Source of the DNA: Kitasatospora sp. Root107
Lineage (GTDB): Bacteria; Actinomycetota; Actinomycetes; Streptomycetales; Streptomycetaceae
Assembly (NCBI RefSeq): GCF_001424875.1
Contig: NZ_LMCT01000012.1
Span: 441,864 to 505,863 of the forward strand
Length of the DNA: 64,000 nucleotides
Direction: 5' to 3'
Numbering within the stretch: position 1 is the first letter of the stretch; every line of letters starts with the position of its first letter. Below the pieces are notes generated by a model that saw nothing but the letters and a program-made list of their open reading frames with translations, did no database searches and was not told where the DNA came from. A program made the translations under genes and the position numbers. Below are positions 13,103-33,739 of this stretch, piece by piece.

Positions 13103-13603
13103 ATGAAGCGTCGGACCGCCACCCGTGCCGCCATCGCCGCCGCCGTCGCCGTGGCCGCGATCGGCACCGTGACCGTCGGTATGGCCCAGGCCGGGGAGGA
13201 AAGGCGCGGCAAGGCCACCGAGCAGGAGATCGCCGCGCTGTTCGACCAGTGGAACGCCGCCCTGCAGACCGGCGACCCGGAGCAGGTCGCCGACCGGTAC
13301 GCGGACGATGCGGTGCTGCTGCCCACCGCCTCACCGCGGATCCGCACCAACCACGCGGAGATAGCCGACTACTTCGAGCACTTCCTGCAGAAGAAGCCGA
13401 AGGGCGAGAAGATCCGCTCGGTGATCAACATTTTGGACAAGGACTCGGCCATCGACGCCGGTGTCTACCGCTTCCACCTCACCGACCCGCAGACCGGCGT
13501 GACCAAGCCGGTCGAGGCCCGCTACACGTACGAGTACGAGAAGCGCGGCGGCAAGTGGCTGATCGTCAACCACCACTCCTCGGTGCTGCCGGCCGAGGGC
13601 TGA
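13103..13603 (+). CDS. Secreted SgcJ/EcaC-type SnoaL-like fold protein
   Basis: A 166-residue protein with an N-terminal signal peptide (KRRTATRAAIAAAVAVAAI..., cleavage near AQA) and an NTF2-like alpha/beta cone domain (about 40-162). Motifs are LFDQWNAALQTGDPEQVADRYADDAVLLP and the C-terminal KWLIVNHHSSVLP, characteristic of the CaMKII-association/SgcJ group. Members are often annotated as oxidoreductases, but catalysis is unproven. GAGGAG at 13091-13096 supports the ATG at 13103. Its last 38 bp overlap the end of the convergent histidine-kinase gene, so the two transcripts are antisense to each other at their 3' ends. Confidence 0.85.
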   Translation: MKRRTATRAAIAAAVAVAAIGTVTVGMAQAGEERRGKATEQEIAALFDQWNAALQTGDPEQVADRYADDAVLLPTASPRIRTNHAEIADYFEHFLQKKPKGEKIRSVINILDKDSAIDAGVYRFHLTDPQTGVTKPVEARYTYEYEKRGGKWLIVNHHSSVLPAEG

Positions 13604-14981
13604 CCCGGAGCGCCGCCCGCAGGCCGATCCGGACGTCCAGCCCGCCCCCGGGGGCGTCCCGCAGGGTTACGCTGCCGCCGTCGTCCGTCACCAGCCGGTG
13701 GACGATGGCGAGCCCGAGGCCCGAGCCGGAACGGCCGGTCAGGCCCTGCCCCCGCCAGAACCGGTCGAACGCGCGGGCCTGCTCGGCGGCGGACATCCCC
13801 GGCCCCTGGTCCAGGATCTCCAGCACCACCTCGTCCCCCGCACCGGCCGGGGTCTCCAGGCGGACGGTGATGATGCTCCGGTCCGGCGAGACCTCCAGGG
13901 CGTTGGAGAGCACGTTGTCCAGCACCTGGTCGAGGTTGCCCGGGCCCACCAGCACCCGCTGCCGCTCGTCCGCGTCACCTGCCAGCACGATGCGCACCCC
14001 GCGTTCCTCGGCGGCCGGGCGCCAGACGGCCAGCCGCTCGCCGACCAGTTCGCGCAGCACCAGCGGCTCGGGGGCGGAGACCTTGGCCTCGGCTCTGGCC
14101 AGCACCAGCAGGCCGCTGACCAGCCGGCTCATCCGGACCACCTCGGCGGTGGCCGACTCGACGTCCTCGCGCACATACTCGTCGTCGACCCCGTCCGCGA
14201 TGTTGTCCAGCGAGAGCCGCAACGCGGTCAGCGGGGTGCGCAACTGGTGCGAGGCGTCCGCGACGAAGATCCGCTGCGAGGCGACCAGGGTGTCCAGCCG
14301 CTCGGCGCCCTGGTTGAGCGTCAGGGCCAGGGTGCGGGTCTCGTGCGGTCCGGTGACCGGCGAGCGCGCCGTGAGGTCACCGTTGCCGAACCGGCTGGCC
14401 ATCTCGTTGAGCTGGCGCAGCGGCCGGGTCAGCCTGCGGGCCACGATCGCGCCGACACCGGCCGCCACCGACAGCACCCCGGCGGCCAGTACGGCCCGGA
14501 ACCCCCAGATCCACCACAGCCGTTCGCTCAGATCGGCGGTCGCGTACCGGATCTGCACCGCGCCGACGATCCGCTCCGGGGCACCCTGGGCGCGGGCCGG
14601 CACGGTGACCACCAACTCGGGCCCCCAGACCGGCCAGGAGCCCCAGTCGACGGTGCTGCGCCCTTCGCCGAGGGCCCGGGCGAGGGCCGGGTCGTCCGGC
14701 CGGGCGACCCGCAGCGGCGACACCGGGGCACCGTCCACCGCGAACAGCTCGACCGTCCCCGGCATCTCCTCCGCGTACGCCTCCGCCACCCGGGCCAACG
14801 CCTGCCGGGCCGGTGCGTCCCGGTCGGCCAGCAGCAGTGCCATGGTGGCGGCCTCACGGCGCACCAACTGCTCGGTCTCCCCGCGCAGTTGGGCGGTCAG
14901 CGTGAACGCCACCGGCACGGTGAAGGCGGCCAGCGCGACCGCGACCAGCAGGACGTAGCTGACGATCAGTCGGCGGATCAC
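13566..14981 (-). CDS. Two-component sensor histidine kinase
   Basis: A 471-residue membrane kinase. It has an N-terminal transmembrane helix (about 5-27), an extracytoplasmic sensor region of about 130 residues, a second helix (about 165-190), and a HAMP domain beginning RRLTRPLRQLNEMA. The HisKA H-box is VADASHQLRTPLTALRLSLD, and the HATPase has the N-box DNVLSNALEVS and G-boxes DQGPGMS and GSGLGLAIV. It phosphorylates the response regulator encoded immediately upstream, with which it overlaps by 4 bp (GTGA), so translation is coupled. The stimulus is unknown. Neighbouring secreted-protein genes make an envelope signal possible. The 3' end overlaps the convergent SgcJ-like gene. Confidence 0.93.
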   Translation of the reverse strand: MIRRLIVSYVLLVAVALAAFTVPVAFTLTAQLRGETEQLVRREAATMALLLADRDAPARQALARVAEAYAEEMPGTVELFAVDGAPVSPLRVARPDDPALARALGEGRSTVDWGSWPVWGPELVVTVPARAQGAPERIVGAVQIRYATADLSERLWWIWGFRAVLAAGVLSVAAGVGAIVARRLTRPLRQLNEMASRFGNGDLTARSPVTGPHETRTLALTLNQGAERLDTLVASQRIFVADASHQLRTPLTALRLSLDNIADGVDDEYVREDVESATAEVVRMSRLVSGLLVLARAEAKVSAPEPLVLRELVGERLAVWRPAAEERGVRIVLAGDADERQRVLVGPGNLDQVLDNVLSNALEVSPDRSIITVRLETPAGAGDEVVLEILDQGPGMSAAEQARAFDRFWRGQGLTGRSGSGLGLAIVHRLVTDDGGSVTLRDAPGGGLDVRIGLRAALRVSPRPAAPRSGG

Positions 14982-15655
14982 TCCGGCTGCTCCTGGACCA
15001 CCAGCCGGAAGCCCACCCCGCGCACCGCCTCGATCAGCACGGCCCCGGCCAACTTCCTTCGCAGCGCTGCCACATGGACGTCCAGTGTCTTGGTCGGGCC
15101 GAACCAGTTGGCGTCCCAGACCGCCTCCATGATCTGCTCCCGGGACATCAGCGCACCCGGCTCCTCGGTGAGGAAGGCCAGCAGGTCGTACTCCTTCGGG
15201 CTGAGCGCCACCTCGGCCCCGGCCAGCCGGACCCGGGCCGCCTTGCGGTCCAGGGTGAGCAGCGGCCCGTAGCGGTCGGGGCCTTGCAGGGCCTGCTGCT
15301 TGGGCTGCACCCTGCGCATCACCGCCCTGATCCGGGCGATCACCTCTCGCACCCCGAACGGCTTGGAGACGTAGTCGTCGGCGCCCACCTCCAGCCCGAC
15401 CACCCGGTCCGTCTCGTCGCTGCGAGCACTGATCACGATGATCGGCACATCGCCCCTGGCCCGCAGCGCCCGGCAGACGTCCAGCCCGTCCGTGTCGGGC
15501 AGCCCGAGGTCGAGGAGCACCAGATCGGGCGGCACCGACACGCTCAGCGCCGCCTGCCCGGTGGTCACCCACTCGACCTCGAAGCCGTACCTCAGCAGCC
15601 CGCGCCGCAACGACTCGGCGACCGGCTCGTCGTCTTCCACCAGCAGTACACGCAC
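14978..15655 (-). CDS. OmpR-family response regulator
   Basis: A 225-residue two-component regulator. The receiver domain (1-115) has the acidic pocket VEDDE, the phospho-acceptor Asp in DLVLLDLGLPDTDG (about residue 48), and the conserved Lys in DDYVSKPF. The C-terminal winged helix (about 130-220) has the OmpR signature SPKEYDLLAFL and DVHVAALRRKL. All phosphorylation residues are intact, unlike the orphan regulator near 33 kb. It starts at GTG 15655, 7 nt after TAGGGT, so it is probably leaderless. It forms a two-gene operon with the kinase. Confidence 0.95.
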   Translation of the reverse strand: MRVLLVEDDEPVAESLRRGLLRYGFEVEWVTTGQAALSVSVPPDLVLLDLGLPDTDGLDVCRALRARGDVPIIVISARSDETDRVVGLEVGADDYVSKPFGVREVIARIRAVMRRVQPKQQALQGPDRYGPLLTLDRKAARVRLAGAEVALSPKEYDLLAFLTEEPGALMSREQIMEAVWDANWFGPTKTLDVHVAALRRKLAGAVLIEAVRGVGFRLVVQEQPE

Positions 15656-21260: not shown

Positions 21261-22165
21261 GTTCGGTGATCCTTTCCGGCTCCTCTGCGGCCCGCGCACT
21301 CCTCCACGAAGCCGAGTGTCCTGAGGTGGTACGCGCGCGCCGTCCAGCCGAGGCTGATGTTGTGGCCCGCATCGGGTTGGTGGTCGATCACGACCCGGGG
21401 TGACGCACTCAACCGGGACCGCAGCCGTGCCACGGCCTGCTGGTCGTGCCGCCACCACGACTCGTGCTCGGCGAAGGTGAGCCGGACCGGCACCCGGATC
21501 CGCCCCGCCAGGTCGGCGAACTCCTCCTGCCAGCGGACGGCGTCCGCGAGCTCACGCGGCGGCACGGGCGCCACGACCGTGCCACCGGCCTGGAACGTCC
21601 CCGGCGGGTAGAGGCGCAGCGGCCCCCAGTTGAGGCGCCAGTTCCGGCCGCCGCGCGGGGCCTCCGCCACCGGCGGCGCCGCGTACTCGTCGCCGCAGCC
21701 GGAGATGTCCAGGCCCAGCAGCCCCGGCACCGCGCCGTCCGCCGCGATCCGCAGCGCCGCCTTGCCGCCGAACGAGTGCGCGAGCAGGAAGATCCCGGCA
21801 CCGGTGTCGTACCGGGCCGCCAGACCGCGCAGGGCCGCCGCCAGGGTGGCCGCCTGGTCCGCGATCCCCTGCCCTTCGGGCAGCTGCCGGGCCGAGTGCC
21901 CGTAGCCGGGCCGGTCCACGGCCACCGCCGCGAAGCCGAGGTCCGCGGCGAGGGACAGGAACGAGGTCTCCGGATGGGCCGGTCCGCCGAAGTACGCCGC
22001 GCTCATCCCCGCTCCGTGCAGGGCGACCACCATCGCCCGGCACGGAGCGTTGGACGGGCGGGCGAGCAGGGCGGAGAGGGTGATCCCGCCCGCGTCCAGG
22101 GTGATGCTCCGGGTCTCCGCCGTCGCCGTCGCCGTCCCCGGACCGGCCAGCTGCGCCACCGTCAC
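21257..22165 (-). CDS. Alpha/beta hydrolase
   Basis: A 302-residue alpha/beta-fold hydrolase. The nucleophile elbow is LLAHSFGGKAAL (Ser within H-S-F-G), the oxyanion region is VALHGAGMSAAYF, and the catalytic His is likely in DAGHNISLG. The acid may be in TFAEHESWW. In a polyketide pathway it could release or decarboxylate the chain, hydrolyse an ester, or act as an editing thioesterase. Sequence alone does not decide. It starts at GTG 22165, overlapping the aromatase stop by 4 bp (GTGA), and ends overlapping the lipocalin-like start, so it is translationally coupled on both sides. Confidence 0.85.
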   Translation of the reverse strand: MTVAQLAGPGTATATAETRSITLDAGGITLSALLARPSNAPCRAMVVALHGAGMSAAYFGGPAHPETSFLSLAADLGFAAVAVDRPGYGHSARQLPEGQGIADQAATLAAALRGLAARYDTGAGIFLLAHSFGGKAALRIAADGAVPGLLGLDISGCGDEYAAPPVAEAPRGGRNWRLNWGPLRLYPPGTFQAGGTVVAPVPPRELADAVRWQEEFADLAGRIRVPVRLTFAEHESWWRHDQQAVARLRSRLSASPRVVIDHQPDAGHNISLGWTARAYHLRTLGFVEECAGRRGAGKDHRT

Positions 22166-23112
22166 GGCCGGTCGCCCCCGGCGAGCCCCTCCGCGTACGA
22201 CTTGGCGATGCCCAGCGTCGCCAGGCTGTTGGTGCTGAGCGCGGTACGGACGAAGTCGATCGCGTCCTGGACGGTCGCGTCCGCCCCCAGGATCCCGGCG
22301 ATCTTCGCGGTGTCGACCGTGAAGGTGTGCTGGGAGGAGGCCGTGACGCCGTCGTCCGTCGGGGTGATCGTCCAGTACCCCGTGTGCAGCGTGATCAGCG
22401 CGGGGAGGGTGACCTGCTTGTACGCGATCTGGTACGGCGGCAGCCCGACCCGGTGCGACTTCGTGGTGTGCGAACTGCCGTCCTTGGAGCGGGTGTCCAT
22501 CTCCAGGGTCTGCAGTCCCTCGGCCGGCTCGTCGAGACGCACCGCGAGGACGTGTGGCAGCCGCTCGGTCCACAGGTCCGCCCGGTAGATGAACTCGTAC
22601 ACGTCCCGGGCGGCGCCCCTGATGTGCACGGTGTCCTCGAACGAGCAGGTCAGCTCGTCCACGGCGCCGGCCGACTCGGCGATCGCCTTGAGCGAGTCCA
22701 GCTCTGTGCGGGAGTTGCGGTCCACCACGTCGTCGAGCCAGCCGAGACTGTCGGCGTCGACGGCCCGGTAGTCGTGGTCCAGCCGGACCAGCGTCTCCCC
22801 GGACGGCAGCGCCTCGATCAGCCAGGCACCGCCCATCGCGGCCACCGGAGGCGTGCTGACCTCCTGCCGGAACCGGATCCGGAGGTTCTCCGGGTCCAGG
22901 GTGCGGTGCGAGGTCCAGTTCTTGACGGTGTCGCCCGCCGTCGCCCAGATCCGGATCCGCTCCTCCCGCTCGCCGCGCTCCAGGTGGTCGACGTAGATGC
23001 TCGGGGGGAACACCTGGGGCCAGCTCGTAGCCTCCGCCAGCAGGCGGTAGACGGTCTCGGCCGGGGCCGAGATCTTGATCTCGTGTCCGGACTCGTGCAG
23101 CTCGGACGGCAT
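22162..23112 (-). CDS. Didomain polyketide aromatase/cyclase
   Basis: A 316-residue protein of two START/Bet v1-like halves (about 1-150 and 155-316), both beginning with a helix-grip motif (HEIKISAPAETVYRLLAEATSWPQVFP and FEDTVHIRGAARDVYEFIYRADLW). Didomain ARO/CYCs of the ActVII type act on C9-reduced polyketides, dehydrating and aromatising the first (C7-C12) ring. Its presence next to an ActIII-like ketoreductase fits this use. It lies 40 nt after the ketoreductase gene and overlaps the hydrolase gene by 4 bp. No signal peptide. Confidence in family is high; ring position is inferred. Confidence 0.93.
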   Translation of the reverse strand: MPSELHESGHEIKISAPAETVYRLLAEATSWPQVFPPSIYVDHLERGEREERIRIWATAGDTVKNWTSHRTLDPENLRIRFRQEVSTPPVAAMGGAWLIEALPSGETLVRLDHDYRAVDADSLGWLDDVVDRNSRTELDSLKAIAESAGAVDELTCSFEDTVHIRGAARDVYEFIYRADLWTERLPHVLAVRLDEPAEGLQTLEMDTRSKDGSSHTTKSHRVGLPPYQIAYKQVTLPALITLHTGYWTITPTDDGVTASSQHTFTVDTAKIAGILGADATVQDAIDFVRTALSTNSLATLGIAKSYAEGLAGGDRP

Positions 23113-23152: not shown

Positions 23153-23938
23153 TCAGAAATTGCCGAGCCCGCCGCAGACGTTCAGGGCCTGGGAGGTGAT
23201 GGCGGCCGCCGTGTCGGAGACCAGGTAGCCGACCAGCCCGGCCACCTCCTCCGGGGTCGAGTAGCGGCCCAGCGGGATCTTGGCCTGGAACTTCTCCAGC
23301 ACCGCCTCCTCCGTGGCGCCGGACAGCCGGCTGTAGTTCTGCCGGACGCGCTCGGCCATCGGGGTCTCTACGTAGCCGGGGCAGACCGCGTTGACCGTGA
23401 TGCCGGTGGGGGCCAGCTCGTTGCCGAGTGCCTTGGTGAAGCCGACCACGCCGTGCTTGGAGGCGGAGTACGGGGCGCCCAGGACCACGCCCTGCTTGCC
23501 CGCGGTCGAGGCGATGTTGATGATGCGGCCCCAACTCCGGTGCCGCAGCCCGCCCGTGGTCAGCACCTCACGGGTCAGCCGGAACACGCTGTTGAGGTTG
23601 GTCTCGATCAGGTTGTCCCACAGCTCGTCGGCGATGTCGGCGGTGACTCCGCCGCCACTGATCCCCGCGTTGTTGACGAGCACGTCGACCTGGCCGAACC
23701 GGTCGACGGCGGCCTGGACGTACCCGCGGATCGAGTCCCGGGACCGCACGTCGAGCACCACACCATCGACGTCGAGCCCTTCCTCCCGGAGCTGCTTGAC
23801 GGTCGTGAGGACCTTGTCCTCGGTGCGCGACCCGATGAACACCTGGTGGCCCTGGCCGGCCAGCAGCCGGGTGACGGCCAGACCGATTCCACTGGTGGCA
23901 CCGGTCACCAGGACGACCCGACGCTCCTGCTGTGTCAT
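23153..23938 (-). CDS. ActIII-like polyketide ketoreductase
   Basis: A 261-residue NADPH-dependent short-chain reductase that should reduce the C9 ketone of the nascent polyketide. The cofactor motif is TGATSGIG (12-19). The catalytic tetrad is Asn114, Ser144, Tyr157 and Lys161, at the same numbers as in the actinorhodin KR. Length is also the same as ActIII. The C-terminus (NVCGGLGNF) closely follows the actIII type. It lies between ACP and aromatase genes with gaps of 31 and 40 nt. Together with the didomain aromatase it predicts a C9-reduced aromatic scaffold. Confidence 0.95.
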   Translation of the reverse strand: MTQQERRVVLVTGATSGIGLAVTRLLAGQGHQVFIGSRTEDKVLTTVKQLREEGLDVDGVVLDVRSRDSIRGYVQAAVDRFGQVDVLVNNAGISGGGVTADIADELWDNLIETNLNSVFRLTREVLTTGGLRHRSWGRIINIASTAGKQGVVLGAPYSASKHGVVGFTKALGNELAPTGITVNAVCPGYVETPMAERVRQNYSRLSGATEEAVLEKFQAKIPLGRYSTPEEVAGLVGYLVSDTAAAITSQALNVCGGLGNF

Positions 23939-23969: not shown

Positions 23970-24233
23970 TCAGGCTGCGGGCGTCATCAGGTGCGCGGAG
24001 ACGGCCGCCAGGAAGGCGCGCGGGGTGCTGGCGTCGCCGACGACGGCCTCGTCCAGCTCGATGCCGTACTCGCGCTCGACCCGGCCTGCGGTCTCCAGCA
24101 GCGCGAGCGAGTCGTAGCCGATGTCGCTGAACTCGGTGTCGAGGACGTCCCCGCTGAGGCCGGTGCCCTCGGGGGCGCCGGAGCCTTCGAGGAGGATCCG
24201 CTTGAGGTCGTCGAGGGTGAAGGTCTGTGACAT
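23970..24233 (-). CDS. Type II PKS acyl carrier protein
   Basis: An 87-residue carrier protein. The phosphopantetheine attachment site is Ser42 in IGYDSLALLE, the same position as in the actinorhodin ACP. Helix II and the acidic surface typical of type II ACPs are present. It carries the growing poly-beta-ketone to the ketosynthase pair, KR and cyclases. It follows the KS-beta gene by 50 nt, which is the standard alpha-beta-ACP order of a minimal PKS. The operon also encodes a phosphopantetheinyl transferase that should load it. Confidence 0.96.
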   Translation of the reverse strand: MSQTFTLDDLKRILLEGSGAPEGTGLSGDVLDTEFSDIGYDSLALLETAGRVEREYGIELDEAVVGDASTPRAFLAAVSAHLMTPAA

Positions 24234-24283: not shown

Positions 24284-25477
24284 TCAGGAGCGCACGACCA
24301 TGGCCGAGTTGAAGCCGCCGTGGCCCCGGGCCAGCACCAGCGCCGTGCGCAGCGCGGCCGGGCGCGGCTGGGAGACGACCAGGTCGAGGCCGAAGCGCTC
24401 GGCAGCCTCGATGTGGACGGTCGGCGGGATCACGCCGTCCTCCAGGGCGAGGAAGGCCGTGGCCAGGTCCAGGGCGGCACCCCCCGCGTACAGGCGGCCG
24501 GTCATCGTCTTGGGGGCGGTGACCGGGACCCCGCGCGGGCCGAAGACCGCGACCAGCGTCTCGGCCTCGATCCGGTCGAGCTCGGGATCGGCCGCCGCGT
24601 CGGCGAAGACGACGTCCACCTCGGAGGGCAGCACCCGGGCGTCGGCGAGGGCGAGTTCGACGGCCTTGCGCAGCCCGGGCTCCCGCCCGTCGAAGGTGGC
24701 GGCGTACCCGGCGATCTCGCCGTACACCTTGGCGCCGCGGGCGCGTGCCGACTCCGCCGACTCGGTGATGAGCAGCGCGCCGCCCTCACCGGCCACATGG
24801 CCGTCGGCCCGGTCGTCGAACGGGAGGTAGGCGTGGGTGGGTTCGGCGGCGGTGCTGAGCCGGCCGCTGGTGTGCAGACCCACCCAGCCCCAGGAGCAGA
24901 GCAGGGCGTCCACCGCGCCGGCCACCACCAGCCGGGTGCCCTTGCGGATCTGGCGGCGGGCCTGGGCCACCGCGTCCAGGCCGCCGGACTGGTCGGTGAC
25001 GACGACGCCGCTGGGGCCCTTCATGCCGTTGCGGATCGAGATCTGGCCGGTGTTGACCGCGTAGAACCAGGCGAAGGACTGGTAGGCGCTGACGTACTGG
25101 CCGCCCTTGCTCCAGAGGTTCTTCAGCTCGCGCTGGCTGAACTCGAAGCCGCCCGCCGAGCTGGCGGTGCTCACGCCCATGTCGAACTCGGGCAGCTCGG
25201 CCGGCCGCACCTGCGCGTCCGCCAGGGCCCAGTCCGCGGCGACCAGGGAGAGCCGGGTCACCCGGTCCGTCTGCGGCATCAGCCGGCTCGGCAGGTGGTC
25301 CTCGGCCGTGAAGCCGGTGATCTCCCCGGCGAGCTTCGCCGGGTACGGCGAGGCGTCGAAGTGGGTGAGCGGTCCGATGGCACTCTTGCCGGCCAGCGTC
25401 GCGTTCCAGTAGTCCCGCGCGCCGAGCCCGTTGGGCGCGGTCACGCCCAGTCCCGTCACCACCACTGAGGCCGTCAT
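24284..25477 (-). CDS. Ketosynthase chain length factor (KS-beta)
   Basis: A 397-residue subunit that pairs with KS-alpha and sets chain length. The active-site Cys of ketosynthases is replaced by Gln163 in [11 protein letters not shown], the hallmark of KS-beta, which primes by malonyl-ACP decarboxylation. In the chamber-lining helix [14 protein letters not shown], the residues corresponding to actinorhodin Thr112 and Phe116 appear to be Ser114 and Leu118. These smaller side chains may permit a chain longer than C16, but this is only a rough inference. It starts at ATG 25477, overlapping the KS-alpha stop by 4 bp, the usual coupling that keeps the heterodimer balanced. Confidence 0.95.
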
Positions 25478-26745
25478 GCGACGCTCCTTTCCGGTTGGGT
25501 CAGCACCATGGCGCTCTGGAATCCGCCGAAGCCGCTGCCGACCGTGAGGACGGTGTCGACGACCTGCTCGCGAGCGGTCAGCGGCACGTAGTCCAGGTCG
25601 CACTCGGGGTCGGGGGTGTGCAGGTTCGCCGTCGGTGGGACGGTGTTGTGACTGATCGCCAGGACGGACGCGGCGATCTCGATGGAACCGATCGCGCCCA
25701 GCGAGTGCCCCACCATGGACTTGATGGAGCTCACCGGCGTGCGGTAGGCGTGGTCGCCCAGGCTGCGCTTGAACGCGGCGGTCTCGTGCCGGTCGTTCTG
25801 CTTGGTCCCCGAGCCGTGCGCGTTGATGTAGTGGACGGCCGTGGGGTCCATCCGGGCCTCGTCCAGGGCCGCGGTGATGGCCTGCGCCATCTCCGCGCCG
25901 TCGGGGCGCAGGCCCGTCATGTGGTACGCGTTGCTCCGGGTCGCGTACCCCGCGATCTCGGCGTGGATCCGGGCCCCGCGGCGCCGCGCGCTCTCCAGCT
26001 CCTCCAGGACGAACACCGCCGAACCCTCGCCGAGCACGAACCCGTTGCGGGTGCCGTCGAACGGACGGGAGGCGTGCGCGGGGTCGTCGTACCGCGGCGT
26101 GGTCGCCTTGATCGCGTCGAAGCAGGCCATGGTGATCGGCGAGATCGGTGCGTCGCTGGCGCCGGCGATCACGACGTCGGCCGAGCCCTCGCGGATCAGC
26201 TCGACGGCGTAGCCGACCGAGTCGAGCCCGGAGGTGCAACCGGCCGACACCATGCTGACCGGGCCCTGGGCACCCACCGACCGGGCGACCTCGGCCGCGA
26301 ACGAGCTCGGCACGAAGTAGTCGTAGAAGAACGGGTCGGCGTAGCTGTGGTCGACCAGGTCGAGCCGGCCGCCGTCGCTCACCGTGCGGTAGTCCTGGTC
26401 CAGGCTCATCGTGGCGCCCACGGCGCTGCCGATGGTGACGCCGATCCGGTAGGGGTCGAGCGTTCCGGTGTCCAGACCGCTGTCGGCGACCGCCCCGCGC
26501 GCCGCCACCAGGGCGAACTGCGCGGCGCGGTCCATCCGCCGGACCTCCTGCGGGGTCAGGCCGTGCGCGTAGGGATCGAAGTCGATCTCCGCGGCGACCC
26601 GGGAGCGGAACTGGGTGGGGTCGAAGAAGGTGATCGTCCTGGTGGCCGTGCGGCCCTCGCTCAGCAGACTCCAGAAGGCCTTGGTGCCGACCCCGCCGGG
26701 GGCGAGCACCTCCATCCCGGTGATGACCACGCGCCTGGCGCTCAT
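25474..26745 (-). CDS. Beta-ketoacyl synthase alpha subunit (KS-alpha)
   Basis: A 423-residue condensing enzyme of the minimal type II PKS. The catalytic triad is Cys170 ([10 protein letters not shown]), His310 ([15 protein letters not shown]) and His347 ([12 protein letters not shown]). It performs iterative decarboxylative Claisen condensations with malonyl-ACP. It starts at ATG 26745. The start overlaps the end of the double-cyclase gene by 4 bp (ATGA) and its own end overlaps KS-beta by 4 bp. The sequence is typical of aromatic type II enzymes, not fatty-acid FabF, as shown by the TKQND(R)HE loop and its partnership with the Gln-type KS-beta. Confidence 0.96.
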
Positions 26746-27422
26746 GCCGAGGCCTCCCAGCTGTAGAAGCGGGTGCCGACCTGGTCGGCGGTGGAGCGCC
26801 AGGTGGCCGGGTCGTACACCTTGACCAGCGGCTCCAGCTCCCGGCAGATCTTGATGAACCGGGGGTCGGCCTCCTTCCACGCCTGGTCGATGAGCGCGTA
26901 CCCGTCGGCCAGCACGAAGTCCTGGATGTGGAAGTAGACGCCGCCGAGGTTGAACAGCTGGCGGCGGCGGGTGCCCATGTGGTGCGGGAAGTCGGTGGCG
27001 TCGAGCTCGGCGAACAGCCGCGACACCTCGGGGATCACCACCGGGTCCATCCGGTTCACGATGACCGTGCTGTGCAGGACCTCCCCCGCCTGCACGGGCT
27101 TCCCCTGCCAGGCGTAGAAGCGGGTCGCCATCGCGTCCAGCGGCGCGAACTCGGCACCGTCCTCGTACGCGGACACCAGCGGGGCGAGGTCCTCGACCAG
27201 CCGGCCGTAGTCGGCGTCGTCCTTCAGCCCGATGCCCGGCGCCGTCGTCTGCTCGTCCGTGAAGTCCTGAATGTGGACCAGCAGGCCGTGGTAGCCGAAC
27301 AGTTGGCGTCGCAGCGTCCCCACCGAGGCGGGCGCGCCGGAGGCGTCGAACCTGGCGAACGCCCCCGTGATGTCCTGCTCCGACTCGGCGGCCGTCCTCG
27401 TCAGAGTCACCGTCGTGCGCAT
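26742..27422 (-). CDS. Tandem double-domain TcmI-type polyketide cyclase
   Basis: A 226-residue protein made of two homologous ~105-residue TcmI-family domains. Domain 1 has [20 protein letters not shown] (35-54) and [10 protein letters not shown]. Domain 2 has [20 protein letters not shown] (150-169) and GTRFYSWEA. Classical TcmI is a single ~110-residue ferredoxin-like domain that works as a dimer and closes later rings. Here the dimer may be built into one chain with two non-identical sites. It sits between the ferredoxin (1-bp overlap) and KS-alpha (4-bp overlap). Domain 2 keeps the consensus better ([16 protein letters not shown]), so domain 1 may be divergent or specialised. Confidence 0.9.
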
Positions 27423-27616
27423 CAATCCTCCATGATGGAAAGAGACTTGGTGGGGCAGACGAACACCGCCTTGCGCGCCCCTTCCGCGGCCGGGCCCTCG
27501 GGCCGGTCGGTGAGCAGCAGGACGACGCCGTTGTCGTCCTGCGAGAACACCGCGGGTTCGGTGAGCACGCACTGGCCGGAGCCGACGCAGCGCTCGTCGT
27601 GTTTCGCTATCCGCAT
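27422..27616 (-). CDS. [3Fe-4S] ferredoxin for the neighbouring P450
   Basis: A 64-residue ferredoxin of the actinobacterial P450-partner type. Cysteine ligands lie in RCVGSGQC (Cys10 and Cys16) and VCPTKSL near the C-terminus. The position between the first two that would hold a fourth Cys is occupied by another residue, as expected for a 3Fe-4S cluster. It would pass electrons from a ferredoxin reductase (not encoded nearby) to the P450 whose gene lies 10 nt upstream. Its stop overlaps the cyclase ATG by 1 bp (TGATG). Confidence 0.93.
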
Positions 27617-27626
27617 GACCCGCCCC

Positions 27627-28886
27627 TCACCAGGTGACCGGGAGCGCGTGCAGTCCGAAGACCACCGAGTCGTACTTGAACGGGAGTTCGTCCACGTCGA
27701 CCGCGAGCTGCAGGGTGGGGATGCGGCGGAAGAGGGTCTCGAAGACGACCTCCAGCTCCAGGCGCGACAGGTTCTGCGCCAGGCACTGGTGCGGCCCGTA
27801 GCCGAAGGCGACGTGGTGCCGGTCGCCGCGCAGCAGGTCCAGCTCGCCCGGGTTCTCGAAGACCTCGGGGTCGTGGTTGGCGGCGTAGACGGAGGCGATC
27901 ACACCCTCACCGGCCCGGATCGTCACACCACCGATCTCGACGTCCTCCAGCGCCACCCGGGCCGCGCCGATGTCGGTGATCGAGTAGAACCGCAGCATCT
28001 CCTCGATGGCCAGCGGGATGCGCTCCTTCGGCTCCGCCATGACCGCCGCGCGCTGCTCGGGGTTGGTGAGGAAGGTGTAGACGCCGAGGGAGATCAGCCC
28101 GGCGCTGGAGTCGTGGCCGGCGAACAGCAGCAGGTGCGCGAGAGCGGAAAGGCCCTCGAAGTTGACCTCGCCGTGCTCTTCCCGCTGCTGGATGATCTGA
28201 CGGCTCAGCAGGTCGTCACCGGGATTCTCGGCTTTGCTCGCAATGAGCTCGTCCATGAATTTGCGCAGCGTCTTGGAAATCTCGAAGCGCTCTTCCCAGG
28301 TGACCCCCTTCGCCAGAATCCTGGAGGTGAGGTCACGGAAATAGGGCTGCTGCTCCAGCGGTGCCCCGACGAGTTCCGCGACCATCATGGCCGGCACCGG
28401 GTGGCCGATCCACTTCACCAGGTCGGCGGGCTGGGGCTGCTTCAGGAGCTCGTCGATCGCGTCGTCGACGATCTCCTGGATGCGCGGCCGCATGGTGGCG
28501 ACCCTGCGCACGGAGAACTCGCTGATCACCGGGCGGCGGGCGTCGTTGTGCTCCTTGCCGTCCATGCTCAGCATGAACTTCGGCTGCCGGGAGAGGCCCT
28601 CGCGCTGACCGGGGGCCAGGATCGGGAATCCGGGGGCGAGCCGGTCCGCGCTGAACCGGGGGTCGGCGAGAACCGAGCGGACGTCCTCGTAACGGGTGAG
28701 CATCCAGGCCGGGTTTCCGTCCTGCATGCGCACCTTCTTGGGGCGCTCACCGTTTCGGACCTCCTCGTACACGGGAGGCGCCGAATAAGGGCATGTCCGG
28801 GTTACCGGATACGTCGGAAGGTCCGCCGCTTCGGCGGCAGTTCCGAGCGCGTCGTTCACATTGTCGACAGTGGGAGTCTGGCTCAC
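27627..28886 (-). CDS. Cytochrome P450, CYP105-like
   Basis: A 419-residue soluble monooxygenase. The heme ligand is Cys368 in FGYGPHQCLAQNLSR. The ExxR motif is Glu296-Arg299 (EMLR). The I-helix oxygen-activation motif is AGHDS (256-260), where most P450s have A-G-x-x-T, so Thr is replaced by Ser260. The N-terminus (YPVTRTCPYSAPPVYEEVR) resembles CYP105-type enzymes, which commonly pair with small ferredoxins. It leads the PKS operon and probably hydroxylates or oxidatively couples the aromatic product. It starts at GTG 28886, with GAGAGGGA 6 nt upstream and candidate regulator repeats before it. Confidence 0.94.
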   Translation of the reverse strand: MSQTPTVDNVNDALGTAAEAADLPTYPVTRTCPYSAPPVYEEVRNGERPKKVRMQDGNPAWMLTRYEDVRSVLADPRFSADRLAPGFPILAPGQREGLSRQPKFMLSMDGKEHNDARRPVISEFSVRRVATMRPRIQEIVDDAIDELLKQPQPADLVKWIGHPVPAMMVAELVGAPLEQQPYFRDLTSRILAKGVTWEERFEISKTLRKFMDELIASKAENPGDDLLSRQIIQQREEHGEVNFEGLSALAHLLLFAGHDSSAGLISLGVYTFLTNPEQRAAVMAEPKERIPLAIEEMLRFYSITDIGAARVALEDVEIGGVTIRAGEGVIASVYAANHDPEVFENPGELDLLRGDRHHVAFGYGPHQCLAQNLSRLELEVVFETLFRRIPTLQLAVDVDELPFKYDSVVFGLHALPVTW

Positions 28887-28934: not shown

Positions 28935-28978
28935 AACATAGGCTCGGCACCCGTCGCGGAGTGTCCAGGAAGTGTCAA
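28935..28978 (-). promoter_or_regulatory. 11-bp-spaced heptads and -10 of the PKS operon promoter
   Basis: On the minus strand TTGACAC (28978-28972), TGGACAC (28967-28961) and weaker CGACGGG (28956-28950) recur at exactly 11 bp. Nine nt later comes TATGTT (28940-28935), a fair -10. This geometry is that of SARP or OmpR/PhoP-class activator sites overlapping the -35 region. The transcript would start about 42 nt before the P450 GTG. Confidence 0.55.
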
Positions 28979-29048
28979 CTCTTCGCGCAGAACATGTCAG
29001 GCACCGCTCTCCCACCCCATGGGTTCAGTAGTACAGAAAGTGAAGTCA

Positions 29049-29070
29049 TTGCACTTACGTACCGAGTGTG
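29049..29070 (+). promoter_or_regulatory. Candidate TetR operator before the FAD monooxygenase
   Basis: TTGCACTT, 6 nt, then CGAGTGTG, containing CACT-N9-AGTG. It matches 18 of 22 positions of a site at 30963-30984. TTGCAC may also be the -35. It lies in the leader, ruling out the GTG at 29068 as start. Confidence 0.6.
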
Positions 29071-29115: not shown

Positions 29116-30273
29116 GTGCAGTCGGCCGGGTACCCGCGGATCGCGATCGTCGGCTCGGGCTTGGGAGGGCTGGCCTGCGCACGCGTGCTGCAGGCGCACG
29201 GGGTGTCCGTGTCCGTCTTCGAACGGGAACCGGAAGGTGGCGCGCGGCCGCAGCGGGGCAGCGTCCAGCTCCGCGCCGACCTGGGGCAGGCCGCGCTCGC
29301 GGCGGCCCGGCTGACCGATCGGTTCCGCGCCTCCTGTCGGCCGGCCGGCCGGGAGCTGCGGGTCTTCGACCCCTTCACCGCCGCGCTGCTGCACCACGAT
29401 CCGCCGCCCGACCGGCCGGGCCCGGAGTCAGCGGAGGGGTCGGCGGAGGGGTGGGCCGAGGAGCAGAACGCGGTGATCGACCGCGGGCGGCTGCGGGCCC
29501 TCCTGCTGGACTCCCTCGACGTGCGGACGGTGTCCTGGCGGCACTTCGTCGTCGACGTCACCGAGCGCAGCGGCGGCCGGTGGCGACTGCACTTCAGCGA
29601 CGGCCGCCGGGAGGACTACGACCTGGTCATCGGCGCCGACGGCGCCTGGTCCCGGGTGCGGGCACTGCTCTGCCGCGCCACGCCCGGCTATACGGGCGTC
29701 ATGTCGGTCGAGGCCGGCTGCGACGCGGTCGACACCCGCCATGTCGACCTCGCCTGGCTGGTGGGCGCCGGCACCCTGGTGGCGCGGGACACCGACCGCG
29801 TACTGCTCGCCCAGCGGGACGGCGGCGGCAGCGTCGGCCTGCACGCCGTCTTCCGCGCCCCCGAGAGCTGGTGGATCTCCTGCGGCCTGGCGGCCCGGAA
29901 CCAGGCCGTGCTGCGCAGTCAGCTGCTGGAGGTGTTCGACGGCTGGGACGAGCGGCTGCTGTACGCCCTCCGGAAGAGCGACGGAGTCCTCGTGGTGCGC
30001 CCGGTGTACGCACTGCCGGGGCCGCCCGCGTGGCGGCACGTCTCCGGGGTGACCCTGGTCGGGGAGGCGGCCCATCCGATCCAGCCGTTCGACCGGGGGG
30101 CGGATCTGGCGTTACGCGACGGCGCGGATCTCGCCCGGGCCGTCCTGGCGGCGGTCGCCGGCGACGACACGGCCGTCCTCGTCTACGAGTACGAGATGCG
30201 CTCGCGCGCCGCCTCGGCCGCCGAGGGCGCGGCGCGGCGGCTGCGCGCCCTCATGACCTCACCCGTCCCGTAG
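29116..30273 (+). CDS. FAD-dependent aromatic monooxygenase, TTA-containing
   Basis: A 385-residue flavoprotein of the PHBH/TetX group. It has the dinucleotide-binding motif IVGSGLGGLACARVL at the N-terminus, and the middle motif DLVIGADGAWSRVR. The C-terminal FAD motif is VGEAAHPIQPFDRGADLAL, where families usually read GDAAH...PFAGEGANLA. The Glu, Asp and Arg changes are unusual and may affect flavin contacts. It probably hydroxylates the polyketide. Codon 30112-30114 is TTA, so translation should depend on bldA tRNA. It starts at GTG 29116 with AAAGGGG upstream. It is divergent from the PKS operon, and its promoter shares an operator with the nearby exporter. Confidence 0.88.
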   Translation: MQSAGYPRIAIVGSGLGGLACARVLQAHGVSVSVFEREPEGGARPQRGSVQLRADLGQAALAAARLTDRFRASCRPAGRELRVFDPFTAALLHHDPPPDRPGPESAEGSAEGWAEEQNAVIDRGRLRALLLDSLDVRTVSWRHFVVDVTERSGGRWRLHFSDGRREDYDLVIGADGAWSRVRALLCRATPGYTGVMSVEAGCDAVDTRHVDLAWLVGAGTLVARDTDRVLLAQRDGGGSVGLHAVFRAPESWWISCGLAARNQAVLRSQLLEVFDGWDERLLYALRKSDGVLVVRPVYALPGPPAWRHVSGVTLVGEAAHPIQPFDRGADLALRDGADLARAVLAAVAGDDTAVLVYEYEMRSRAASAAEGAARRLRALMTSPVP

Positions 30274-30962: not shown

Positions 30963-30984
30963 TTGCACTTTTGAATCGAGTGTG
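30963..30984 (+). promoter_or_regulatory. Candidate TetR operator before DHA2 exporter
   Basis: TTGCACTT, 6 nt, CGAGTGTG with CACT-N9-AGTG. It lies between the divergent TetR and exporter genes and is the sister of 29049-29070. Confidence 0.65.
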
Positions 30985-31087
30985 CTGTTCTGGTGGGGCA
31001 CGAGTGGCCGGACATCGCCACTCCCCGTGTCACCGCACTCCCCTCACCCTTCCGCACGCCTTCGGCGTCACCGAAAGGACGTCTGTC

Positions 31088-32707
31088 GTGTCTACGTCAT
31101 CCCCGACCTCTCCGGTCGGCGTGCCCCCCTCGGAGCCGGTCACCACGCCGGCCAACATCCGCTGGACCCTGCTCGGCGTGATGCTCGGAATGCTGCTGGC
31201 GATGCTCGACAACACGATCGTCAGCACCTCGATGCTGACGATCGTCGGCGACCTCGGCGGCCTGGACCACATCTCCTGGGTGGTGACCGCGTACGCGCTC
31301 GCCACCGCCGTCTCCACGCCCGTCTGGGGCAAGTGCGGTGACCTGTACGGGCGCAAGCACGCCTACCTCACGGCGATCGCGGTCTTCCTGATCGGTTCGG
31401 TCGCCTCCGGTGCCGCCCAGTCCATGTCGCAGCTGATCGCCTTCCGGGTGATCCAGGGCCTCGGCGCCGGCGGCCTGGCCTCGCTGGCCTTCGCCCTGAT
31501 CGGTTCGCTGGTCGCACCGCGCGAGCGCGGCCGCTACCAGGGCATGACCGCCACCGTGATGGCCGTGGGCACGGTCGGCGGGCCGCTGCTCGGCGGTCTG
31601 ATCACCGGTCACCTGGGGTGGCGCTGGGCGTTCTACGTCAACCTGCCCCTCGGCCTGGTCACGTTCGTCTGGTGCCAGGTCATGCTGAAGCTGCCCCGCC
31701 AGCGGACCAAGGCGAAGATCGACTGGCTCGGCATCGTCCTCATGACCATCACCATCAGCTCCGTCGTGCTGGCCGCGACCTGGGCCGGCAACACCTACGC
31801 CTGGGGTTCGTGGCAGATCATCGGCCTGTTCGCGACCGCCCTCGTCGGCCTGTTCGCCTTCGTCGCCTCGCAGAAGCGCGCACCCGAACCGGTGCTGCCG
31901 CTGCGGGTGTTCGCGACCGGCAACTACAAGATGGCCTCGATCATGGTCTGTGCCGCCGGCGCGGCCATGTTCGGCGCGACCCTGTACCTGCCGGTGTTCC
32001 AGCAGAGCGTGCAGGGCGCGGACGCGACCAGCTCCGGCCTGCTGCTGCTGCCGATGGTGGCGCCCATCGCCCTGGTGTCCAACATCGTCGGCAAGGTGAT
32101 GTCCCGCACCGGCAAGTACAAGATCTTCCCGATCGTGGGGTCGGCCTGCCTCTCCGTCGGCCTGTTCCTGCTGTCGACCATGGACACGGACACCTCCCGC
32201 CTCCTGACCAGCCTCTACATGGTCCTGGTCGGCGTCGGGTTGGGCTTCCTGATGCAGATGACCACGACCATCGCGCAGAACAGCGTCGAGATGAAGGACA
32301 TGGGCGTCGCCTCGGCGGGCGTCACCCTCTTCAGGACCATCGGCGGTTCGCTGGGCGTGGCCGTGTTCGGCTCCCTGTTCACCCGGGCCCTGGAGAACCA
32401 CCTGCCCGGCTCCGGCACGGGCGACTCCGACCTGGAGCTCAGCGCCTCCGCCCTGGCCGGCCTTCCGGCGGGCGCCCGGGACGCCTACCTGGGCGCGGTC
32501 GCCGAGGGCACCCAGAACATCTTCCTGGTCGCCGCCGTCATCTGCGCCGCAGCGTTCTTCGCGGCGCTCGCCGTCAAGGAGGTCCCGCTGCGCGGGAAGC
32601 CCGGCGGAGCACCTGGCCCGGGTCCGGCGGGGGCTGCAACGGTGGGTCCCCAGGCCGGGGCGTCGGCAACGTCGGCAGCAGTCCCGCCGGGACGGCCCAC
32701 GACGTGA
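31088..32707 (+). CDS. DHA2-family MFS drug exporter (first copy)
   Basis: A 539-residue 14-helix major facilitator. Motif A is GKCGDLYGRKHAYL after helix 2, and antiporter motif C-like glycines follow (GTVGGPLLGGLITGHLGWRWAFYVN). It should export the polyketide by proton exchange from the cytoplasmic membrane. The C-terminal tail is Pro/Gly/Ala-rich. It starts at GTG 31088 with GAAAGGA 8 nt upstream. It is controlled from the TetR intergenic region. It is closely related to the second DHA2 exporter at 37971-39542, suggesting duplication within the cluster. Confidence 0.93.
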   Translation: MSTSSPTSPVGVPPSEPVTTPANIRWTLLGVMLGMLLAMLDNTIVSTSMLTIVGDLGGLDHISWVVTAYALATAVSTPVWGKCGDLYGRKHAYLTAIAVFLIGSVASGAAQSMSQLIAFRVIQGLGAGGLASLAFALIGSLVAPRERGRYQGMTATVMAVGTVGGPLLGGLITGHLGWRWAFYVNLPLGLVTFVWCQVMLKLPRQRTKAKIDWLGIVLMTITISSVVLAATWAGNTYAWGSWQIIGLFATALVGLFAFVASQKRAPEPVLPLRVFATGNYKMASIMVCAAGAAMFGATLYLPVFQQSVQGADATSSGLLLLPMVAPIALVSNIVGKVMSRTGKYKIFPIVGSACLSVGLFLLSTMDTDTSRLLTSLYMVLVGVGLGFLMQMTTTIAQNSVEMKDMGVASAGVTLFRTIGGSLGVAVFGSLFTRALENHLPGSGTGDSDLELSASALAGLPAGARDAYLGAVAEGTQNIFLVAAVICAAAFFAALAVKEVPLRGKPGGAPGPGPAGAATVGPQAGASATSAAVPPGRPTT

Positions 32708-33028: not shown

Positions 33029-33739
33029 ATGCGCAATGGCTTCATGCAGCCAACGACAGAGACGATCGAGGACATCGGCACGGACATCACGTGGCGTGTG
33101 CTCATCGTCGAGAGCGACAACCGGGACAGGGAGATCTTCGGACAGGGTTTGAGCTTCTACGGATGCAAGGTGAGTGCGGTCTCCACGGGACGGGAGGCGC
33201 TCGACGCCTTCCGGGAGGTCGACCTGGTACTGCTCGGCCTCGATCTGGCCGACCGGGACGGGCTGGAGGTCTGCCGGATGATCCGGGCCGCCTCGGACAC
33301 GCCGATCATCGCCATCACGGCCCGCGGGGCCGAACGGGACGCGGTCCTCGGGCTGCGGGCAGGCGCGGACGACTACGTGGTCAAGCCGTGCGGATCCCAC
33401 GAACTGGCCGCTCGGATCGACGCGGTGATGCGCCGGGTACGGGTCGGCCGGAATGCGGAACGTGTCATCGAACACGGTTCGCTGCGTATCGACACCGGCC
33501 GGCGCGAGGTGACGCTGAAGGACCGGACGATCAAGACCACCAAAAAGGAGTTCGAACTCCTCCACCTGTTGGCCTCCCATCCCGGCACCGTCCTCTCCCG
33601 GGAGACGATAATGCGGCAGGTCTGGGGCGACTCGTGGTCCAGAAGGACCATCGACACCCACGTCAGCAGCATCCGGACCAAACTCGGCCGGAATGACTGG
33701 ATCATCACCATACGCGGGGTCGGATTCATGATGGCCTGA
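33029..33739 (+). CDS. Orphan atypical OmpR-family response regulator, JadR1-like
   Basis: A 236-residue regulator with a receiver (about 22-138) and an OmpR winged helix (about 145-235: TTKKEFELLHLLASHPG, TIDTHVSSIRTKLG). The phospho-acceptor Asp is replaced: DLVLLGLDLADRDG has Gly70 where families have Asp. The acidic pocket reads VESD, with Ser29 for Asp. Switch Thr97 and Lys119 remain. No kinase gene is nearby. This matches the atypical regulators of angucycline clusters (JadR1, Aur1P, LanI), known or thought to sense pathway end products. It is the likely PKS activator. The start is ATG 33029 after GGGGGTG. Confidence 0.88.
   Translation: MRNGFMQPTTETIEDIGTDITWRVLIVESDNRDREIFGQGLSFYGCKVSAVSTGREALDAFREVDLVLLGLDLADRDGLEVCRMIRAASDTPIIAITARGAERDAVLGLRAGADDYVVKPCGSHELAARIDAVMRRVRVGRNAERVIEHGSLRIDTGRREVTLKDRTIKTTKKEFELLHLLASHPGTVLSRETIMRQVWGDSWSRRTIDTHVSSIRTKLGRNDWIITIRGVGFMMA

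Follow-up and report, generated by a model that had tools for sequence, protein, structure and literature searches.

A putative phosphorylation-independent activator with glycine at the phospho-acceptor position, and its predicted direct-repeat operator, in a type II polyketide cluster of Kitasatospora sp. Root107

JadR1, which activates the jadomycin cluster of Streptomyces venezuelae, is the most studied member of a family of atypical response regulators (PMC8910723), and DNA binding by both JadR1 and RedZ is lost in the presence of their products (PMC12632262). SimReg1 of the simocyclinone cluster, which has been grouped with JadR1, LanI and LndI and has no kinase in its cluster, keeps three of six phosphorylation residues and is released from DNA by simocyclinone culture extract (PMC3261101). 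Aur1P of the auricin cluster, located on plasmid pSA3239 of Streptomyces lavendulae, binds and activates aur1Ap, and auricin intermediates abolish the activation (PMC8910723). Full Aur1P activity requires Aur1O. The proposed relative PapR6 failed ligand tests (PMC12632262). Aspartate-less receivers which are not tied to antibiotic clusters, such as ChxR and HP1043, also function without the usual phospho-acceptor, the commonest substitute being Glu (PMC12632262).

A comparable regulator is encoded in the window, i.e., the whole stretch of 64,000 nucleotides (64 kb) that was analysed here. Its gene, domains and altered active-site codons are the following:

33029..33739, plus strand: atypical OmpR-type response regulator (ARR) of 236 aa, assigned by Pfam, residues, tree and model
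aa 23-139 of the ARR: pseudo-receiver
aa 146-235 of the ARR: winged-helix DNA-binding domain
33110..33115, plus strand: codons 28-29, Glu-Ser, acidic pair with the second acid gone
33236..33238, plus strand: codon 70, GGC (Gly), phospho-acceptor position (alignment, orthologue)

Domain search, structure model and structural matches all gave an OmpR/PhoB-type architecture of receiver plus winged helix. PF00072 and PF00486 both scored above the Pfam cut-off, and the AlphaFold2 model contains an intact receiver (mean pLDDT of 92-94 for the blocks covering residues 21-70), with G70 at the end of beta-3, as well as the winged helix; its closest structural matches were MtrA and PrrA. The DNA-binding domain is intact, as the initial annotation had stated. 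Aligned to canonical regulators, the five-residue set of the receiver reads E28 S29 / G70 / T97 / K119. Gly70 replacing the phosphorylated Asp and Ser29 breaking the acidic pair, both of which had been proposed from the sequence beforehand, were thereby confirmed, while Thr97 and Lys119 are retained. Canonical two-component regulators are recognised by the phospho-acceptor Asp together with the acidic pair, and G70 and S29 place the ARR outside this group.

An orthologue with 95% identity is encoded at loci L077/L078 of a second genome of the genus, G013, in a cluster matching that of the window at approximately 91-98%. Its active-site set (ESGTK) is identical and its codon 70 is also GGC, which rules out a sequencing error at this codon. 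Between the two orthologues dN/dS is approximately 0.12 for the entire gene, 0.08 for the receiver part and 0.09 for the DNA-binding domain; KS-alpha of the cluster, compared with its G013 orthologue, has 0.11. These low values indicate purifying selection by which the receiver is maintained, and a pseudogene could likewise be ruled out.

Homologue searches covering 70 genomes of the genus, 395 genomes of the family and annotated plasmids yielded more than 100 homologues of the ARR, mostly with 50-62% identity; a scan of genome contigs with the single protein returned distant regulators only. In a quick maximum-likelihood tree from which the five active-site columns were left out, 118 atypical regulators, among them the ARR and Aur1P, split from the canonical ones with 99% SH-aLRT. 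The regulator on pSA3239 was identified as Aur1P because its length of 771 bp and that of the following gene (882 bp) match the aur1P and aur1O fragments described previously (PMC8910723). It shares 60% identity with the ARR across receiver and DNA-binding domain, and it also lacks the second acid (E-S). Both clusters have a CYC-KSa-KSb-ACP-KR-ARO core, and the same type of 11-bp repeat (see below) appears in the target promoter region of Aur1P. Unlike the ARR, Aur1P retains the phospho-acceptor Asp and is co-transcribed with the coactivator Aur1O, of which the window contains no homologue, while a distant one is located elsewhere in the genome. The auricin cluster also differs in having GBL receptors and SARPs. 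By description, JadR1 resembles the ARR as an OmpR-type, kinase-free activator of an angucycline cluster, although product feedback has been demonstrated for JadR1 and would apply to the ARR by analogy. SimReg1, similar by description as well, differs in its pathway and in also binding an exporter promoter, and ChxR and HP1043 are set apart by the Gly of the ARR in place of the more common Glu.

Among the 108 members with at least 50% identity, Asp70 is retained in 93, including Aur1P; the other 15 carry Gly (seven), Ser (four), Glu (two), Thr (one) or Ala (one). Position 29, on the other hand, is Asp or Glu in only five of the 108. What is defective in nearly all members of this family is thus the second acidic position and not Asp70, whose state changed at least six times across the tree. 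The ARR grouped with four more Gly-bearing proteins, namely its orthologue and those of L048 (S. camelliae), L106 and L114; within this group only the orthologue pair has strong branch support. The loci of these proteins have their cluster type in common (KS-alpha 86-96%), and judged from these sequences Gly70 is the mark of a small subclade whose members lie in a single type of type II PKS cluster. The initial annotation had described the missing Asp as a JadR1-type pattern. Family membership (in the tree with Aur1P), the lack of a kinase and the location in a cluster agree with this description, but Asp loss is a minority state.

Several loci (L079, L097, L099, L100, L102, L105, L108, L109, L112, L113, L116 and L117) contain two ARRs that belong to different subclades and are separated by a few kb; these might work in pairs or as heterodimers. 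On a plasmid of Nocardia sp. NBC_01377 (L050, 11095-15654) a block of MFS exporter, TetR regulator, FAD oxidoreductase and ARR resembles that of the window and is adjoined by group II intron and IS630 genes; no type II PKS lies within 15 kb of this block in either direction.

The genes surrounding the ARR gene are:

27627..28886, minus strand: cytochrome P450, the nearest gene downstream of the predicted operator
26742..27425, minus strand: polyketide cyclase with two PF04673 stretches
25474..26745, minus strand: ketosynthase alpha (KS-alpha)
24284..25477, minus strand: ketosynthase beta / chain-length factor (KS-beta)
23970..24233, minus strand: acyl carrier protein (ACP), assigned from its position and its likeness to ACPs annotated in related clusters (no match in an NCBIfam scan)
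23153..23938, minus strand: ketoreductase (KR)
22162..23112, minus strand: aromatase/cyclase
29128..30273, plus strand: FAD-dependent monooxygenase, divergent from the P450 gene
30321..30923, minus strand: TetR-family regulator, divergent from the MFS exporter
31064..32707, plus strand: MFS exporter

From cyclase to aromatase the minus-strand genes, which the P450 gene precedes, show an angucycline-type order; this order of the PKS core is common to many of the homologue loci (KS-alpha mostly 70-96% identical). From the P450 gene towards the ARR gene they are followed by the divergent FAD monooxygenase, the TetR regulator and the exporter. Further downstream are genes for an alpha/beta hydrolase, a lipocalin-like protein and a phosphopantetheinyl transferase, an order shared with the plasmid cluster of S. 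camelliae. The imperfect palindrome TTGCACTTNNGNANCGAGTGTG, 22 bp long, is present in exactly two copies (0.01 expected), one before the FAD monooxygenase gene (29049-29070) and one between the TetR gene and the exporter gene (30963-30984), and is probably the operator of the TetR regulator. No SARP gene or BTAD domain was found in the 64-kb window, the ARR having a receiver instead, and control of the cluster by a SARP was rejected on this basis. In agreement with the initial annotation there is also no kinase nearby: the sole HATPase_c match of the window (approximately 13617-13937) lies about 19 kb from the ARR gene, beside a canonical regulator of its own (14978-15655). This canonical pair of a HAMP/HisKA/HATPase kinase and an OmpR-type regulator (13566-15655) is also retained in the orthologous region of G013.

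A candidate binding site of the ARR was recognised by comparing the intergenic regions of the window locus and its closest clusters:

28962..28978, minus strand: predicted ARR operator core TTGACA-N5-TGGACA, an 11-bp direct repeat in the P450/PKS promoter (conservation)

This repeat, TTGACACTTCCTGGACA, is situated upstream of the P450 gene within a block of about 36 bp (28957-28992) that is identical in the orthologous cluster, and similar repeats precede the P450 genes of L048, L106 and L114. The repeats formerly placed at 28935-28978 do exist, but their core is narrower. In 2.04 Mb of family loci, 19 pairs of YTGACA occur at a period of 11 bp, whereas no other period between 7 and 30 bp has more than five. 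The family loci thus appear to share an 11-bp direct repeat, YTGACA-N5-YTGACA, which is reported here as new; text searches of the literature returned nothing usable on a published operator of the JadR1/Aur1P family. With a scoring matrix trained on sites excluding the window and its orthologue, the site at 28962 had the highest score of the 64 kb, 20.6 bits vs. 12.4 bits for the runner-up; one of 100 simulated windows reached 20.6 bits. This test is not fully blind, as the motif was first noticed in the window locus and its nearest relatives. At the aur1 locus the top-scoring site (21708) is in the aur1O-aur1A gap, the region in which Aur1P reportedly binds and switches on aur1Ap (PMC8910723). 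In leave-one-locus-out scans, 44 of the 48 top sites with at least 18 bits were intergenic according to a crude gene call, and Asp-less loci are represented among these sites; about half of the family loci score below 18 bits, and in the window the second half-site, TGGACA, deviates from the consensus. Counts of exact 6-mer repeats were suggestive at most, and an unsupervised motif search in upstream stretches of 300 bp mainly picked up upstream coding sequence. Downstream of the sites there is no -10 hexamer at a constant spacing. The leader of the ARR gene itself contains no good match and no standout family-type repeat. Autoregulation is for this reason not predicted.

At L046 and elsewhere in the family, many sites carry a third half-site, CTG at +22, as well as another box of the CCTGAC type about 40-60 bp downstream. 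Three such repeats in tandem with 11-bp spacing, within one mismatch, occur at two other positions of the genome (G000:C17:43037-43064 and G000:C45:118428-118455).

We consider it quite probable that the ARR is a phosphorylation-independent, cluster-situated activator of the JadR1/Aur1P family which binds the predicted site at 28962-28978 and drives the operon from P450 to aromatase. The receiver would be unable to take up phosphate on the canonical Asp and would be retained as a folded pseudo-receiver, probably for dimerisation. A dimer would then occupy the two head-to-tail half-sites 11 bp apart and activate an operon that we infer to extend from P450 through cyclase, KS-alpha, KS-beta, ACP and KR to aromatase. 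For dimerisation and activation we rely on the OmpR/PhoB family together with Aur1P, JadR1 and SimReg1. By analogy with these relatives, late products of the pathway may bind the pseudo-receiver and release the ARR from DNA, resulting in negative feedback, a step for which we regard the chances as even. The initial annotation had proposed that the ARR activates the PKS operon in response to an end product. While the predicted repeat makes the P450/PKS promoter the likely target, the sign has to be reversed, as the effect is inhibitory in each relative that gave a positive result; activation until product accumulates is the better analogy.

A serious, though less probable, alternative to this product feedback is that the ARR is constitutively active without any ligand and that its output is set only by the amount made, e.g., with its own promoter under the control of a TetR regulator or a gamma-butyrolactone receptor, as has been suggested for VmsT. 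Pseudo-receivers can be constitutively active and controlled by synthesis, and PapR6 was negative in ligand tests (PMC12632262). In addition, Asp is kept and lost alternately within one family with one operator type, so that the residue in the pocket seems to matter little for DNA binding. The strong purifying selection on the receiver, however, speaks against this alternative, as do the three relatives that respond to products or extracts (PMC12632262, PMC3261101, PMC8910723).

It is unlikely that the repeat at 28962 is the site of another regulator or a plain -35 promoter element and that the ARR acts elsewhere. TTGACA is a -35-like hexamer, which the repeat resembles, and the degenerate pattern alone is not rare, with at least one match in 61 of 100 shuffles and about one expected per 64 kb; the site thus carries weight because it is conserved and not because it is rare. 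Across the genome the pattern is not enriched (28 matches vs. 35 in the control), and the site is therefore a local prediction. Against another owner of the site stand the 11-bp periodicity in the family loci, the coincidence with aur1Ap, the intergenic sites near ARR genes and the lack of a SARP in the window that could claim it. A little less likely still is the idea that the change from Asp to Gly in the subclade was selected to open the phosphorylation pocket as a product-binding site, turning the pseudo-receiver into a dedicated metabolite sensor with an unchanged 11-bp operator.

Repression instead of activation of the P450/PKS operon would be conceivable if the predicted site overlapped the -35 region, and JadR1 is known to repress chloramphenicol genes as well (PMC6627628), but as JadR1, Aur1P, SimReg1 and others activate their own clusters (PMC8910723, PMC3261101) we regard it as very unlikely. 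Least credible is a residual two-component regulator that would receive phosphate from a distant kinase or a small phosphodonor at a different residue, e.g., Asp72: Thr97 and Lys119 are retained, Asp72 is two residues past the lost Asp and the genome has many histidine kinases, but position 70 is Gly, Ser29 replaces a metal-binding acid, no kinase is encoded within 18 kb, and D+2 is commonly acidic in members keeping Asp70, so that Asp72 is not a compensating change.

Taken as a probable activator, the ARR is a well-supported and, for the most part, ordinary representative of a known family of activators of antibiotic clusters, in which the Gly variant is unusual. As Asp-bearing and Asp-less members apparently work on one operator type, this family would offer a ready test of what role, if any, the conserved Asp retains. 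The predicted operator may also provide a simple way of locating the promoters on which these activators act in silent polyketide clusters.
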